Assembly: GCF_016806065.1 (NCBI RefSeq)
Contig: NZ_CP032405.1
Location: 3,252,001 to 3,316,000, forward strand
Source of the DNA: Rhizobium rosettiformans
GTDB taxonomy: Bacteria; Pseudomonadota; Alphaproteobacteria; Rhizobiales; Rhizobiaceae
DNA: 64,000 nucleotides
Direction of reading: 5' to 3'
Shown here: positions 26,160-35,656 of the stretch, in pieces
Layout: every line of letters begins with the position of its first letter
Numbering within the stretch: the stretch's first letter is position 1
The notes under the pieces: generated by a model
Database searches by the model: none
What the model saw: only the letters and a program-made list of their open reading frames with translations
Told to the model about the DNA's origin: nothing
Program-made: the position numbers and the translations under genes

Positions 26160-27141
26160 TGCCCTGGCCGGCGAGCCAGTCCAGGATGATCTTCGCAATC
26201 GGCTCGGTGGTCTCGGGCGAATAGGTATCGCCGGCAATCACATGGTTGTTGGCGTCGCCGGTCGGACCCGGATCGACGAGCGCGTGATCGGCACCCCAGC
26301 GCGCCGCAACCGCCGCCGTCCGTTCCGGCCTGACAACCTTGTCCTCGACAGACTGAAGGAAGAGGGCGGGAACGCGGATCTCCTCTACCGGCGTGTGGCT
26401 GGCCAGCCGGACCGATTGCGCCATGGGAATGAGCGCGGTTACTGGATAATTCGTCGTCCAGTTGTGCGCGTTGAGCGGGCTGATCGGGTCGAAGCCCGTG
26501 CGCTCGCCGATGATCAGCCGGGCAAGAGAGCCGCCGAACGGACCGGTCAGCAAGAAGCTACCGGAAGCCTGCACGCCATAATTGGGTGAGAGGAAAACCG
26601 AAGCTGCGATCTTCCCGGTAAGCGACGGGCGGCCGAGCGCCCAGGTGACGAGCGAAGCACCAGTGGACGTCGAGACAACGACGACGCGGTCGCCCAGACG
26701 TTTGCCGATGGCGAGTGCTTCGCCGACATCTGCCGCCCAGTCATCGATCGTCGCAAGGCCCAAGGCGTCGGGATCGTCGAGACCATGACCGGTAAGACGG
26801 GTGAGAAAGAGATTGGCGCCGAGTGCTTGTGCGACGCGGTCGGGCAGGGGGCGGACTTCCGCTGGCGAGGCGGAAAAGCCGTGCACATAGATGACCGAGA
26901 CCGGCGTTTTGCTCTTCCGGGCGGGATCCGCCCAGACGATCTGCTTGGCAAGTCCTTCGCGGATGCGGCCAGCTTCACTCTCGCTGTCGGCGATCAGGAC
27001 ATCAAGCGAATCGAGCGGGGCGTCTGCGCCGATCTTTGCCTCGCGTTCCAGCGTGAGTACCGGTGGTCTGAGATAGAGAAAGACTGTAGCCGCGATGCTG
27101 ATCAGAACGAGTGCAAGCGACAGGCCCATAACGATCCGCAT
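26152..27141 (-). CDS. Membrane-anchored alpha/beta hydrolase
   Basis: A 329-residue hydrolase with an N-terminal membrane anchor (about residues 4-25) and a catalytic domain facing the periplasm. The oxyanion region is VIYVHGFSASPAEVRPL. The nucleophile elbow reads STSTGAS (Ser instead of the first Gly of GxSxG), the acid lies in QSVEDKVVRP and the histidine in NNHVIAGD. This resembles esterase/lysophospholipase-type proteins; the substrate is unknown. The ATG at 27141 has GGAGACAGAGGG upstream; 15 in-frame upstream codons are less likely. Convergent with ilvA with an eight-base overlap. Confidence 0.85.
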   Translation of the reverse strand: MRIVMGLSLALVLISIAATVFLYLRPPVLTLEREAKIGADAPLDSLDVLIADSESEAGRIREGLAKQIVWADPARKSKTPVSVIYVHGFSASPAEVRPLPDRVAQALGANLFLTRLTGHGLDDPDALGLATIDDWAADVGEALAIGKRLGDRVVVVSTSTGASLVTWALGRPSLTGKIAASVFLSPNYGVQASGSFLLTGPFGGSLARLIIGERTGFDPISPLNAHNWTTNYPVTALIPMAQSVRLASHTPVEEIRVPALFLQSVEDKVVRPERTAAVAARWGADHALVDPGPTGDANNHVIAGDTYSPETTEPIAKIILDWLAGQGIR

Positions 27142-27253
27142 CCCTCTGTCTCCGGTAGCCTTCCCGACCGAAGCGGACTGTATCACGCCATCATGACGCG
27201 GGAAGAAAACTGCCTGCTCTTCCTCGCTGGGCCTTGCTGTGCTAGGTCAGGCC

Positions 27254-27574
27254 ATGTCTATCCTGTCCAGCATCCTCTCGATTTTCACCGGCGGTTCTTC
27301 TTCCGAAACTGCCGCCAAGCCAATGGCAGAGCCGCAGACCTACAAGGACTGCGTCATCCATGCCGAGCCCATGCGTGAAGGCAGCCAGTATCGTCTGGCC
27401 GGTCGCATCGTAAAGACCGTGGATGGTCGGTCGCTCGAGCGGAAATTCATCCGCGCCGACGTCTTCACCTCGTTCGATGATGCCCTCGACTGCACCTTCC
27501 GCAAGGCGCAGCAGATCATCGATCAGAATGGTCCGGCGCTTTTCGGTGACGGCGAGGAAACCCGCATCGTCTGA
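27254..27574 (+). CDS. HlyU-family protein
   Basis: A 106-residue protein of the HlyU transcriptional-activator family (PF10115 type), named from Vibrio, though this rhizobial group is not related by function in any demonstrated way. Visible are YKDCVIHAEPMREGSQYRLAGRI and RKFIRADVFTSFDDALDCTFRKAQQIIDQNG. The N-terminus is short and hydrophobic (SILSSILSIF). The ribosome site is weak (TAGGTCAGG). It lies 99 bases before the Amt-GGDEF-EAL gene on the same strand; a joint transcript is possible. Confidence 0.75.
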   Translation: MSILSSILSIFTGGSSSETAAKPMAEPQTYKDCVIHAEPMREGSQYRLAGRIVKTVDGRSLERKFIRADVFTSFDDALDCTFRKAQQIIDQNGPALFGDGEETRIV

Positions 27575-27673
27575 CGATGCACTTCAATATCGCGAAGAAA
27601 TGTTTCTTCGCGATCACCGAATGTTAATGATGCACCGCAACACTGGACCCTGAAATATTGTCCGGGTTTTCCA

Positions 27674-30600
27674 GTGATCATTGCGTTTCGCTCTATTTCA
27701 TCCCTTGCTTTTCACGGCTTGGCAGCGAGCCTCGTGTTGGGCTTTCCCCTTCCGGTTCATGCGGCAGAGGCCGTGACCGCCCAGGCCGCCAAGGCCTCTG
27801 CGGATCTCGCCTGGCTAATGGCCGCCGCCGGCATGGTGATGATGATGCAGGTGGGATTCCTGCTTCTTGAAGCCGGCATGGTGCGCTCGAAGAATTCCAT
27901 CAATGTCGCTCAGAAGAACCTCCTGGATTTTGTCTTCGGCGTCGTCGGCTTTGCGGTCGTTGGTTTCATGCTTGCCTTCGGCCGCTCCGGTTTCCTGCCG
28001 GTCGGGCTCGATCCTGACTATTTTCTGCTTCAGGGCCTCGACAGCTGGCTCGCCGGGTTCTTCGTCTTCCAGGTGATGTTCTGCGGCACGGCGGCGACCA
28101 TCGTCTCCGGTGCCGTCGCCGAGCGCATGACCCTCTCGGCCTATGTGCTCGGGTCGATCATTCTGTCGACGCTGATCTATCCGATTTTCGTGCACTGGGT
28201 CTGGGGGACGGCGATCGGACCCAACTCCGGAGCCTTTCTCGCCAATCTCGGCTTTGTCGATTTTGCCGGCTCCACGGTGGTCCACGCCACGGGTGGCTGG
28301 ATCGCACTTGCTGCCTGCCTGGTGATCGGAGCGAGACGCGGGCGTTTTGATGCCGAGGGACGCCCGGTGCGTCTTGCCGGCAACAATCCCGTTCTGGCGA
28401 CCACCGGCGGCCTCATCCTGTTTTTCGGCTGGATTGGCTTCAATGGCGGCTCCACCCTGGCAGCCAACGCGGATGTGGCGCCGATCATCCTCAACACGGT
28501 TCTCGCTGGCGGCATGGGCACCTGCGTCGGCTATGTGATCGGTGCGAGGCAAGATGGCGTGGTGCTGCCGGAAAAGGCGCTATGTGGCATGCTGGGTGCG
28601 CTGGTCGCCGTCACGGCGGGCTGCCACCTGCTTGAGCCGGGTGGCGCCCTCCTCACGGGCGCGCTCGGCGCGATCGTCGCCATCGTCGGCAATCAGTATC
28701 TCGAACAGAAGCTCAAGGTCGATGATGCTGTCGGCGCCGTCGGCGTACACGCTTTTGCGGGTGTCGCGGGAACCCTTGCGCTTGCGCTTCTGGCGCCGGT
28801 CGATAGCCTGCCCCTCGGCGGACGATTCGATCAGTTCTACATCCAGCTTTTTGGTTCCGCGCTGAACTTCTACTGGGCTTTCGGCCTTGGCTATGCCTTC
28901 TTCTGGACGCTCGACAAACTCGTGCCCGTTCGCGTCACGGCCGAGGCCGAAGACATCGGCCTGAACGTCGCCGAACATGGGACGCGGCTGGGTGTCGGCC
29001 ATGTCGAGGACGCTCTTTCAAAGCTCGTTTCCGGCAAAGCCGACCTTGGCGATCGGCTACAGGTCGATCCGGGCGACGAGGCGGAGAAGCTGACCCGGCT
29101 GTTCAACCACCTGATGGACAATATCCAGCAACAAGAACGCAATCGAAGCGCACTCGAATCCCAGGTCCGCGACCAGGAAGAGGCGGATCGGGTGACGGCG
29201 CTCGCCAACGCCACCTTTGAAGCGATCGTCATGCACGAAGGCGGCGTGATCATTGACGGCAACGAGCAATTCGAGGTGCTGACGGGTCGCAAGATTGCAG
29301 ATCTCATCGGAACGTCGATCCTCGATGTTGTCGACCAGACCGGGCGGCGTATGCTGATCGAGGATCCCAATCCGGCGCCCGACGTGTCGCGAGAGTTCCA
29401 GATCGTCCGCGCCGACGGCTCAAGCATCCCGATCGAGGCACGGGGCCGCAACATCGAATATCGCGGCCGGCATATCCGGATCAGCTGTCTCGTCGATCTT
29501 CGCGAGCGCAAGGCAGTCGAAAGCCGCATGCGCCATCTCGCGCAGCACGATCCGCTGACGGGCCTTGCTAACCGCGCTCTGTTTACCGAGACGCTCGCTG
29601 CCCATGTCGAGCAGGCAAACGATGGATGGGGCTGCGGAGTTCTTCTGGTCGATCTCGACCACTTCAAGGACGTCAACGATCTCTACGGGCACCCGGCCGG
29701 CGACGAGGTGATCAAAGAGACAGCGCGTCGCCTGACTGCGGCACTCGGCCCTGCCGACATGGCGGCCCGCTTGGGCGGCGACGAGTTCGCGGTCATCCTC
29801 GGCAATTGCCATTTCGAGGCCCAGTGCGAGGATTTCGGCCGCCGCCTGGTTGAAGCCTTTCGGCAACCCTTCGACACCGGCCAGGGCGAACGCATCAAAT
29901 GTGGTGTCAGCATTGGCGGTGCGCTTTGCCCCGAACATGCGGGCGAGCTCGACGAACTGATCGGCCGTGCTGACATCGCTCTCTATCACGCCAAGAAGTC
30001 CGGGCGGAACACGTTCCGTTCCTACCGCAAGGGCATGGACGAACTGATCGAGAAGCGACGCGCACTCGAAGCCGATATCGAGCGCGGACTGGAGCGCGGC
30101 GAGTTCGAACTCTATCTCCAGCCTCGGGTCTCGGCATTGGATGCTTTGATCGTCGGATACGAGGCTCTCGTGCGCTGGAAACATCCGGAGCGGGGAATGG
30201 TGCAGCCGGGTGATTTCATCCCCGTCGCCGAGGTCTCCGGCAAGATCATCGAACTGGGAGAATGGGTGCAGATCGAGGCCTGCCGTCTGGCAACCGGTTT
30301 CCCGGAGCATCTGCATATCAGCGTCAACGTCTCGCCGGTGCAGTTCCGCCATCCGCAGTTTCTGGAGCGGATCGAAGCGATCCTGGATGCGTCCGAGGTT
30401 TCGCCGCATCAGCTGGAGCTTGAGATCACGGAGAGCGTGCTGATCGATGATGACCAGCGGGCGCGCCTCATTCTCGGCCATTTGAAGACGCTGGGCTTGA
30501 GGATTGCGCTCGACGATTTTGGTACCGGCTATTCATCGCTCAGCTATCTGAGCCGCTACCCCTTCGACGTGATCAAGATCGATCGCAGCTTCGTGTCAGC

Positions 30601-30913
30601 CCTCGGAACCGAGGAGACGGCCGACGCCATCGTCCGCACGATCATCGATCTGGGCAGCGGGCTCGGCATGCGGGTCGTGGCGGAGGGTGTGGAGACGCTG
30701 GATCAGGCTCGTTACCTGAGCGTTGCTGGCTGTGACGAGCTCCAGGGCTATCTGCTGGGCCGCCCGCAGCCGGTCGACAGTATCGCATCCGAGGTGAGCG
30801 CGGAGATTGTCTCGGAACTGACCAACGTCGCGCGGCTTCAAGCGCGCCGCGACAAGCGCCTGTCCAGGACGGGGAGCGAGACAGGGCTTGCTCTGGCGGC
30901 AAACGGCAACTGA
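27674..30913 (+). CDS. Ammonium transporter fused to PAS, GGDEF and EAL domains
   Basis: A 1079-residue fusion. After a signal peptide (about 1-31) residues 35-430 form an Amt channel with eleven helices. Pore residues are kept: twin histidines H204 and H359, gate phenylalanines F136 and F256, W177 and D196 (equivalent to AmtB W148 and D160). A HAMP-like linker (about 445-490), a short coiled coil and a PAS domain (about 505-615) follow. A GGDEF domain starts near 625 with an intact GGDEF at 701-705; the RxxD site reads GPAD. The EAL domain (about 795-1045) keeps E830-A-L, NVSP, ELEITES, DDFGTGYSS, VIKIDRSF, AEGVET and QGYLLG. So both synthesis and breakdown of c-di-GMP look possible. The start is a GTG at 27674 with a weak ribosome site. 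No glnK is adjacent. Confidence 0.93.
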   Translation: MIIAFRSISSLAFHGLAASLVLGFPLPVHAAEAVTAQAAKASADLAWLMAAAGMVMMMQVGFLLLEAGMVRSKNSINVAQKNLLDFVFGVVGFAVVGFMLAFGRSGFLPVGLDPDYFLLQGLDSWLAGFFVFQVMFCGTAATIVSGAVAERMTLSAYVLGSIILSTLIYPIFVHWVWGTAIGPNSGAFLANLGFVDFAGSTVVHATGGWIALAACLVIGARRGRFDAEGRPVRLAGNNPVLATTGGLILFFGWIGFNGGSTLAANADVAPIILNTVLAGGMGTCVGYVIGARQDGVVLPEKALCGMLGALVAVTAGCHLLEPGGALLTGALGAIVAIVGNQYLEQKLKVDDAVGAVGVHAFAGVAGTLALALLAPVDSLPLGGRFDQFYIQLFGSALNFYWAFGLGYAFFWTLDKLVPVRVTAEAEDIGLNVAEHGTRLGVGHVEDALSKLVSGKADLGDRLQVDPGDEAEKLTRLFNHLMDNIQQQERNRSALESQVRDQEEADRVTALANATFEAIVMHEGGVIIDGNEQFEVLTGRKIADLIGTSILDVVDQTGRRMLIEDPNPAPDVSREFQIVRADGSSIPIEARGRNIEYRGRHIRISCLVDLRERKAVESRMRHLAQHDPLTGLANRALFTETLAAHVEQANDGWGCGVLLVDLDHFKDVNDLYGHPAGDEVIKETARRLTAALGPADMAARLGGDEFAVILGNCHFEAQCEDFGRRLVEAFRQPFDTGQGERIKCGVSIGGALCPEHAGELDELIGRADIALYHAKKSGRNTFRSYRKGMDELIEKRRALEADIERGLERGEFELYLQPRVSALDALIVGYEALVRWKHPERGMVQPGDFIPVAEVSGKIIELGEWVQIEACRLATGFPEHLHISVNVSPVQFRHPQFLERIEAILDASEVSPHQLELEITESVLIDDDQRARLILGHLKTLGLRIALDDFGTGYSSLSYLSRYPFDVIKIDRSFVSALGTEETADAIVRTIIDLGSGLGMRVVAEGVETLDQARYLSVAGCDELQGYLLGRPQPVDSIASEVSAEIVSELTNVARLQARRDKRLSRTGSETGLALAANGN

Positions 30914-30975
30914 AGGACCTTGCCGTTTGCAAAATGAGGGCGGCAGCGCGGCTGCCGCGTTGGAGCGTTGATAGC

Positions 30976-31587
30976 TCAGGCAGCGCGCGCCAGTTCCTCG
31001 ACCTTGGCCTTGGCAGAAGCCACGGCCTTTTCGGCGGCTTCCGGACCGTATGCCACGCCTTCGACATAGACAGTCTCGACCAGCTCGATGCCGAGGAAGC
31101 CGAGGACCGTCTTGAGATAGGGTTCAGCATGGTTCATCGGGGCGCCTGGGCCGGAGGAGTAGATGCCGCCGGCGGCGAGCACCAGATAGGCCTTCTTGCC
31201 CTTGGCGAGGCCGACCGGGCCGTTTTCCGTGTAGCTGAAGGTCAGGCCGGCGCGAGCGATGTGGTCGATCCAGCTCTTCAGCGACGAGTAGATGTTGAAG
31301 TTGATGAGGCCGGTGCCGATGACGATCGTGTCGGCGGCCATCAGTTCCGCGACGAGCGCGTCGGACGTGGCGACAGAAGCGGCCTCTTCAGCGGTGCGTG
31401 CATCAGCCGGCTTGCGGATCGCGGTGGTGAAGGCGCCGTCGACGTGGTCGAGCTGGGTTTCGACGAGGTCGCGACGGACCAGCGTGCCGGTCTCGCCGGC
31501 GAACTTCTCGGCGAGCTCGGTGGCGATCGCGTTCGAGAGGGATTCCGAGCCGCGCGGGCTGGAGGTGACGAGAAGGATGGAAGACAT
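30976..31587 (-). CDS. azoR: FMN-dependent NADH-azoreductase
   Basis: A 203-residue flavodoxin-fold enzyme that reduces azo compounds and quinones with NADH. The FMN-binding start is LLVTSSPRGSESLSNAIA, followed by IVIGTGLINFNIYSSLKSWIDHIARAGLTFSY and the AGGIYSSGPG loop, as in AzoR. The ATG at 31587 has GAGGAA upstream. It is divergent from a LysR gene across 117 bases, so that regulator probably controls it. A GC hairpin without a T run lies near 30941-30960. Confidence 0.93.
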   Translation of the reverse strand: MSSILLVTSSPRGSESLSNAIATELAEKFAGETGTLVRRDLVETQLDHVDGAFTTAIRKPADARTAEEAASVATSDALVAELMAADTIVIGTGLINFNIYSSLKSWIDHIARAGLTFSYTENGPVGLAKGKKAYLVLAAGGIYSSGPGAPMNHAEPYLKTVLGFLGIELVETVYVEGVAYGPEAAEKAVASAKAKVEELARAA

Positions 31588-31704
31588 GTGCAATTCCTCG
31601 AATGGTGGTGGGCCCTTGGGAGCAGGCCTGCCATGCATCTATGTCCGACCACGCATCAATAAAACTGTGATAATCTAGATCGGTCATATCGAATAACTGG
31701 ATGG

Positions 31705-34815: not shown

Positions 34816-35154
34816 TCAGATCGGAACAAGGTTGCGGGGATCCCGATGGAAGTGGCGGAAGTAGGCGGTGACCTGCGCGACCGCATTGGTGGTCTGCTCG
34901 AATTCGAGCCCCATCTTGCCGGCGCGGTACCAGCAGACGGTGCATTCGATGTGGCCGAGTTCGGGGCAACTGACAGTCACTGTCGCGCCGCGCTTGGCTT
35001 CGATCCAGCCCTCGAGATGCAGGGCCATGCCGGTTCGGGAAATGTCGAGAATACGGACGTTGAACTTCTGGCCGATGAATTCCAGCGTTCCCCTGATATG
35101 ACAGCGGATACGGTGGCTGCGGCGGCCGTCCGGGTTGAGTTTGGCAGCAAGCAT
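34816..35154 (-). CDS. PilZ domain protein (tandem copy 1)
   Basis: A 112-residue stand-alone PilZ domain. The canonical receptor motif is complete: R11-x3-R15 and DISRTG at 37-42. The C-terminal part has TVCWYRAGKMGLEFEQTTNAVAQVTAYFRHFHRD. A TTG in frame at 35172 is possible, but the ATG at 35154 has GGAG nine bases upstream. It is a paralogue of the gene at 35321, which lies 166 bases upstream on the same strand; each has its own ribosome site. Confidence 0.88.
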   Translation of the reverse strand: MLAAKLNPDGRRSHRIRCHIRGTLEFIGQKFNVRILDISRTGMALHLEGWIEAKRGATVTVSCPELGHIECTVCWYRAGKMGLEFEQTTNAVAQVTAYFRHFHRDPRNLVPI

Positions 35155-35320
35155 AAAATTGCGCTCCGTCAAATTGATTGAAAGAAACGCAGGAAACCTC
35201 GGCCAGGCGCCTTAACGGCATCTGGCCAAGGTCATTAGAATGCGAGCGACCTCCTCAGGAGATTTTGGGTGTTTTGCCGGTTATGCGGGGTGTTTACCGT
35301 TAACTTCCGGTCCGAAGGGC

Positions 35321-35656
35321 TCAGCCGCGCAGGACCGGCCGGACTTCTTGATGATAGTTGCGGAAATAGGCCGCGACCTTGGCAATCGAATTGCTGTTCG
35401 GTCGGAACATGATGCCGATGCGGCCGCCATAGTTCCACCGGACGACGCCTTCGAGATGGCCGATATCCTCGTTTTCGATGATCACCTGACTGCCGGCGGC
35501 GGCGGTTAGCTTGGTGGCGAGTTCGAGCGCGAGGCCTGTGCGTGAGATGTTGATCACGCGCGCATCTGCCTGCTGCTGGAAATAATGGATCTTGCTGTCG
35601 AGCCGGCAACGGCTGCGGGGTGATTTGCGAACATCCATACCGAGATTATTGCTCAT
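35321..35656 (-). CDS. PilZ domain protein (tandem copy 2)
   Basis: A 111-residue stand-alone PilZ domain with R10-x3-R14 and NISRTG at 36-41 (Asn in place of Asp). The closing segment VVRWNYGGRIGIMFRPNSNSIAKVAAYFRNYHQE corresponds closely in position and sequence to that of the neighbouring copy, so the two arose by duplication. The ATG at 35656 has AGGA upstream. Binding partners are unknown. Confidence 0.88.
   Translation of the reverse strand: MSNNLGMDVRKSPRSRCRLDSKIHYFQQQADARVINISRTGLALELATKLTAAAGSQVIIENEDIGHLEGVVRWNYGGRIGIMFRPNSNSIAKVAAYFRNYHQEVRPVLRG

Follow-up and report, generated by a model that had tools for sequence, protein, structure and literature searches.

The window analysed here is a stretch of 64,000 nucleotides from the genome of Rhizobium rosettiformans. 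One of its genes encodes a protein annotated as an ammonium transporter; as predicted from its sequence, the product is most likely an ammonium receptor with enzyme domains that would make and break cyclic diguanylate (c-di-GMP). The gene forms a single unbroken frame of 1079 codons plus stop, beginning with GTG. An earlier note on this DNA had described one gene joining Amt, a HAMP-like linker, PAS, GGDEF, and EAL, and both the open reading frame and the Pfam scan confirm this. The parts of the gene are as follows.

27674..30913, + strand: whole gene, 1079 amino acids from a GTG start, with Amt, HAMP-like linker, PAS, GGDEF, and EAL
27674..27766, + strand: N-terminal stretch, residues 1-31, signal-peptide-like by eye only
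27809..28984, + strand: Amt module, predicted receptor type from Pfam, nearest solved Amts, and tree; Pfam match at residues 46-437, E 7.5e-98
27848..28108, + strand: span of the putative two-ammonium site (Q59, E66, N82, D85, T142, S145), from alignment with Ks-Amt5
28997..29179, + strand: HAMP-like linker, residues 442-502, from a sub-threshold Pfam match and helices in the structural model
29219..29506, + strand: PAS domain, residues 516-611; Pfam PAS_9 match at residues 519-611, E 3.2e-7
29540..30010, + strand: GGDEF domain, Pfam match at residues 623-779, E 9.9e-43; active-site motif intact, arginine of the inhibitory site (I-site) missing (G692)
30074..30766, + strand: EAL domain, Pfam match at residues 801-1031, E 6.6e-71; catalytic residues intact

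A frameshift or assembly join between the Amt part and the GGDEF-EAL part, an objection raised in the earlier note itself, is excluded because orthologs span nearly the full length without an internal stop. Such a copy is present in 21 of the 36 genomes of the genus, its own included (E<=1e-150), and named relatives of full or near-full length occur in Rhizobiaceae, for example in Agrobacterium albertimagni with 97% identity. The database search gave 5298 matches among 7993 scored candidates. Amt, GGDEF, and EAL were found together in 120 of 120 relatives among the matches listed (precomputed Pfam domains). The fusion had been called rare; among the relatives of this protein it is common. In a sample of 121 genomes from across the family, at least 13 carry, among the matches listed, an Amt in a stop-to-stop frame of 898-1112 amino acids, counted by Amt match and frame length with few domain-checked. 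The gene is under purifying selection. Ratios of nonsynonymous to synonymous substitution rates (dN/dS) between the window's copy and eight orthologs were 0.009-0.176 over the five domains (8 comparisons) and 0.32-0.88 in the C-terminal tail, obtained by a simple counting method with many dS values near or above 1. The N-terminus is poorly kept, with a mean identity of 20% across residues 1-45 in an alignment of 121 sequences (the window's protein and the 120 listed relatives), which also underlies the counts out of 121 below.

The evidence for a receptor comes mainly from a predicted ammonium-binding site distinct from the pore. Ks-Amt5 of Candidatus Kuenenia stuttgartiensis is an Amt repurposed as an ammonium sensor, and PMC5764959 describes in it a second, intramembrane site for two ammonium ions, formed by Q24, E31, N47, D50, T51, T109, and T112. 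Alignment places Q59, E66, N82, D85, F86, T142, and S145 of the window's protein at these positions, and Sd-Amt1 of Shewanella denitrificans has the same letters as the window's protein at all seven. The site is incomplete in the genome's own AmtB, which reads A, E, N, L, F, S, S, and in E. coli AmtB, which reads T, Y, V, T, F, G, V. Among the relatives, the site Q, E, N, T, and S are present in 121 of 121 sequences and D in 119. The full Q-E-N-D-T-S/T set was found in 27 of 29 fused Amts (8 of the 29 being closely related to the window's protein) and in 5/5 stand-alone Amts of the same similarity class. Two fused Amts depart from it: in L143, D is replaced by N and T by A, and in L148, S is replaced by A. 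None of 59 ordinary Amts had the set (0/39 and 0/20, own AmtB included); this sample, with one row gapped at the site, is no census and consists mostly of Rhizobiaceae and other Pseudomonadota chosen among high-scoring matches. The receptor reading draws on this full two-ammonium site, which the ordinary Amts sampled lack.

The residues that line the transport pore do not carry the same information. H204, H359, F136, F256, W177, and D196 had been numbered and placed correctly in the earlier note, and together with S260 they are kept in 120 or 121 of 121 sequences. The preserved pore had also been taken there as a sign of sensing. However, all seven letters are identical in 39/39 ordinary Amts and in 20/20 further ones. 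Pore residues were rejected as evidence of sensing for this reason: every ordinary Amt sampled has them, and they cannot separate a receptor from a transporter.

Phylogeny and structure comparison also place the Amt module with the known receptors. A tree of 73 Amt rows placed the 29 fused rows, with Ks-Amt5 and Sd-Amt1 inside, in one group (support 97/93) and the five stand-alone rows with the site in a separate group (100/99); some placements are unsure because of long branches (Ks-Amt5, Sd-Amt1, L162, L147, L143, and others). The stand-alone group, the fused group, and the type of the genome's own AmtB join at a fork that the tree does not resolve. By sequence, the solved Amts closest to the module are Ks-Amt5 (6eu6, 3e-81) and Sd-Amt1 (8qj3, 1.3e-79), followed more weakly by an Archaeoglobus fulgidus Amt-1 chain (2b2f, 2.6e-41) and the best E. 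coli chain (2.1e-32). In fold comparison, the model deviates from Ks-Amt5 and Sd-Amt1 by 1.7-1.8 Å and from A. fulgidus Amt-1 by 2.1 Å. By its sequence, the window's Amt module is assigned to the receptor group of Ks-Amt5 and Sd-Amt1 and not to the uptake Amts.

Both output domains appear equipped for catalysis, as the earlier note had judged. The GGDEF loop G701-F705 and the metal-binding D660 are present, each in 119 to 121 of 121 sequences. The same near-invariance holds for E830, N885, E917, D947, D948, K968, E1004, and Q1024 of the EAL domain, which we take to be the phosphodiesterase catalytic set E, N, E, D, D, K, E, Q. All 13 distant Amt-GGDEF-EAL proteins keep the GGDEF residues, and 12 of them keep the EAL catalytic residues. 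In the RxxD inhibitory site of the window's protein, G692 replaces the arginine (window positions 29747-29749) and D695 is kept. This site is not required for cyclase activity, and many active cyclases lack it. The arginine occurs in only 10 of 121 near relatives, compared with 11 of 13 distant proteins, so release from product inhibition may mark this alphaproteobacterial branch.

Taken from sequence, a receptor-type Amt, a HAMP-like linker, a PAS domain, and GGDEF and EAL domains with intact residues lie on one polypeptide. We consider it probable that the protein sits in the inner membrane as an ammonium receptor and sets c-di-GMP. The earlier note had proposed an ammonium-to-c-di-GMP sensor, and this is still the best-supported prediction, through the two-ammonium site and the tree and not through the pore. 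External ammonium would cross the outer selectivity filter (W177, S260) and be held inside the membrane at Q59, E66, N82, D85, T142, and S145. A shift of the Amt core could then move the linker, the HAMP-like helices would re-pair, and the balance of cyclase (GGDEF) against phosphodiesterase (EAL) would change. PAS may supply a second, cytoplasmic input, and uptake would be left to the separate glnK-amtB pair. The direction of the response is a more tentative matter: ammonium may favour the cyclase, a guess drawn from analogy with Sd-Amt1, which we regard as slightly less likely than not.

Several observations weigh against this reading. All pore residues are present, so transport by the protein may still occur. 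T51 of Ks-Amt5 is F86 here, as it is F in Sd-Amt1. The Ks-Amt5 pore-closing residues F27, Y30, and F34 correspond to F62, L65, and M69, which resemble Ks-Amt5 less than they do the genome's AmtB (F, L, L): F62 fits both, and L65 and M69 do not fit Ks-Amt5 (Sd-Amt1 has F, F, N). The HAMP family PF00672 scores 18.6 bits at residues 444-486, under the curated cut-off of 25, and the linker is called HAMP-like for that reason. HAMP was matched at E<=1 in 31 of 41 scanned family members, the window's protein included (best 2e-4), and the predicted structure has two helices in the linker region (442-452 and 471-502). The structure prediction, made from 41 sequences, has a mean predicted local distance difference test score (pLDDT) of 84.5 with low confidence at residues 498-514. 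Its predicted template modelling score (pTM) is 0.49, and the arrangement of the domains is therefore not predicted. A trimeric Amt must somehow pair dimeric output domains. The distant protein L143 has lost two EAL catalytic residues and also two residues of the ammonium site. At E<=1e-150, 15 of the 36 genus genomes gave no copy (2 of these are <85% complete), and the gene is therefore dispensable. Finally, the genome has 51 GGDEF matches, so the receptor would be one voice among many in c-di-GMP control.

A narrower form of the receptor reading is doubtful but the strongest of the alternatives: the protein would be an ammonium-controlled phosphodiesterase, with GGDEF acting merely as a GTP-binding regulator of EAL. 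The missing I-site arginine would perhaps be tolerable if net synthesis were unimportant. However, the GGDEF motif and the metal-binding aspartate are nearly invariant, active cyclases without an I-site are common as noted above, and the one distant protein with lost residues, L143, kept its GGDEF domain intact and lost EAL residues instead.

It is rather unlikely that the protein is a true transceptor, the term used in the earlier note, in which inward ammonium transport and signalling are combined and c-di-GMP output follows flux, not the filling of a closed site. The intact pore speaks for such a protein, and F62, L65, and M69 resemble the own AmtB more than the bulky closing residues of Ks-Amt5. 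Nevertheless, Ks-Amt5 keeps functional pore residues and its transport path is described as closed in PMC5764959, and the genome has a separate P-II/Amt pair for uptake. This pair sits at 1.17 Mb, away from the window, with the P-II gene first and the Amt gene after it. With the own GlnK as query, no match was found within the window at E<=1, which bears out the earlier remark that no glnK neighbours the gene.

It is very improbable that the Amt is chiefly a membrane anchor or weak modulator of an ordinary PAS-GGDEF-EAL enzyme controlled by PAS, as the structurally close PAS-GGDEF-EAL and GGDEF-EAL chains (5xgb, 5m3c, 4rnh) and the many GGDEF matches of the genome might suggest, since the ammonium-site residues are near-invariant, mean identity among the five domains is lowest in PAS (52%, n=121), and Amt modules of this group are also found on chemoreceptor and histidine kinase outputs, as expected of a sensor.

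Known systems cover parts of this architecture. Sd-Amt1 (PDB 8qj3, 8qj4, 8qpf; Pfluger et al. 2024, Sci. Adv. 10, eadm9441) also joins a receptor-type Amt and a GGDEF domain on one chain, and the PDB titles assign 8qj3 to its OFF state and 8qj4 to its ON state. It differs in its chain of 644-661 amino acids, whose matches to the window's protein are confined to Amt and GGDEF, with none in EAL; the Amt identity is about 39-40%. The linker of Sd-Amt1 is reported to be a HAMP domain, and ammonium is reported to activate the protein. Ks-Amt5, the best sequence match, has a histidine kinase output, is said in PMC5764959 to lack HAMP and PAS, and differs at T51 and T112 (F86 and S145 here) and at the plugs F27/Y30/F34 (F62/L65/M69). 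The Pseudomonas aeruginosa proteins PA0575 (5m3c), MorA (4rnh), and PA0861 (5xgb) have the same cytoplasmic output as the window's protein; unlike it, their chains have no Amt match. The AmtB-GlnK uptake pair shares the Amt fold and the pore residues, and differs from the window's protein, which has no adjoining glnK and carries long output domains.

Amt-kinase and Amt-GGDEF receptors are already known, and the window's protein varies that kind by including PAS and EAL in its domain order. The earlier note had itself named Ks-Amt5 and Amt-cyclase fusions; the prior Sd-Amt1 chain lowers the novelty. No recognisable account of an Amt-GGDEF-EAL fusion appeared among the papers listed in searches of a literature set that lacks most subscription papers. 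A 2009 review by Tremblay and Hallenbeck of Amt proteins as sensors may list such fusions. Sequences joining Amt with other domains were observed previously according to PMC10433425 and PMC5764959, so the architecture may be listed somewhere. Ks-Amt5 and Amts as sensors are touched on in PMC12918730 and PMC8534201, and the passages of PMC2628731, PMC2907700, and PMC12487129 deal with ordinary Amts or with a misspelling of the abbreviation for PAS. The main text of a 2022 review of c-di-GMP signalling inputs has no words starting with "ammoni" or "Amt".

The neighbourhood of the gene is conserved and includes possible c-di-GMP effectors.

27239..27574, + strand: HlyU-family gene directly upstream, from Pfam; a conserved neighbour
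34816..35172, - strand: PilZ gene, a possible c-di-GMP effector in a conserved neighbourhood
35321..35656, - strand: second PilZ gene in the conserved neighbourhood

Thirteen loci were compared, of which L013 and L011 are missing flanking sequence to one side or to both. The HlyU-family gene lies upstream in 11/11 loci with flanks. Downstream, 10/11 have flavodoxin-fold, LysR, and nucleotidase genes together with one or more PilZ genes; L007 has no match there for any of these four. PilZ was confirmed by domain scan in the window. Immediately after the fusion, and on the same strand, 5 of the 12 loci with downstream flank have a gene with a GGDEF motif (the 11 and L011), at L005:9122-10390, L007:9213-10478, L008:9220-10521, L009:9345-10613, and L011:1601-2947 (all +). 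Two of the five were scanned, and both are VUPS-GGDEF proteins; the window has no room downstream for this extra gene of its relatives. Just 5' of the GTG, a non-coding block at 27600-27673 (+) reappears in 12 of the 19 related loci set beside it. It holds a short stem-like CCYGA...YCGGG followed by T and has no Rfam match.

Rfam at gathering scores gave only three tRNAs in the window. Within 27100-31700, sigma-70-like sites numbered 0 against 0.8 expected and terminator-like sites 4 against 3.7 expected, with none of the latter in the interval that separates the start codon from the upstream gene. The + strand of 27001-27700 has no match to the sigma-54-like pattern and five to a loose GG-N10-GC pattern. 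A link to nitrogen fixation was rejected: the genome's two strong matches to the NifH family proved to be BchX and BchL, and seven more are weak. At L166 (G000:C1:534000-553500), the BchX and BchL matches exceed cut-offs, and the genome thus carries bacteriochlorophyll genes.

Receptor-type Amts are joined to more than one kind of output. Among 398 genomes of the phylum, with at most four candidates scored per genome, at least 20 have an Amt of >=241 bits in a stop-to-stop frame of >=741 amino acids, giving at least 21 proteins among the matches listed. One more long frame, in G355, holds an ordinary Amt with an open reading frame of only 452 amino acids. The output scan took in the window's protein and 18 others of the 21 and left out G020 and G258; the 18 comprise 13 GGDEF-EAL, 2 methyl-accepting chemotaxis protein (MCP), 2 histidine kinase type, and 1 PAS only. 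One sensor module on several outputs is as expected of a receptor. On the tree, the GGDEF-EAL label changes at least three times on well-supported branches, and outputs were therefore swapped, gained, or lost more than once.

Some of these relatives merit attention in their own right. L144:5185-7428 (-) and L147:4395-6689 (-) combine a receptor-type Amt with an MCP domain and keep the full ammonium site, with G at the pore serine in L147. They are candidate ammonium chemoreceptors, and the papers listed in literature searches included none recognisable as treating Amt-MCP fusions. L156:4446-6578 (-) encodes 710 amino acids, a receptor-type Amt with PAS and without GGDEF-EAL; its tree sister is the GGDEF-EAL protein L155, and it may be a shortened gene. 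The stand-alone Amts with the full site are those of L158, L159, L160, L161, and L165. In L159, L160, and L161, a gene of 214-218 amino acids follows directly, and in two of them the genes overlap by 4 bases. NCBIfam gave no match for it in 3/3, nor did Pfam in the two scanned; its product is possibly a partner of the stand-alone Amt.

How external ammonium itself is sensed by bacteria, apart from P-II and the internal nitrogen status, has been little mapped. A broader picture, which we regard as finely balanced and leaning slightly towards doubt, is that an ancient receptor-type Amt serves as a plug-in ammonium sensor across Pseudomonadota, with GGDEF-EAL, MCP, and kinase outputs, and that in rhizobia-type bacteria it has become a two-way c-di-GMP switch set by external ammonium and, having lost the I-site arginine, no longer subject to product inhibition. 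Q59, D85, and T142 would help to separate receptors from transporters. If the receptor reading is true, many proteins named "ammonium transporter" in their source would be receptors that link a major nitrogen nutrient to the decision between sessile and motile life.

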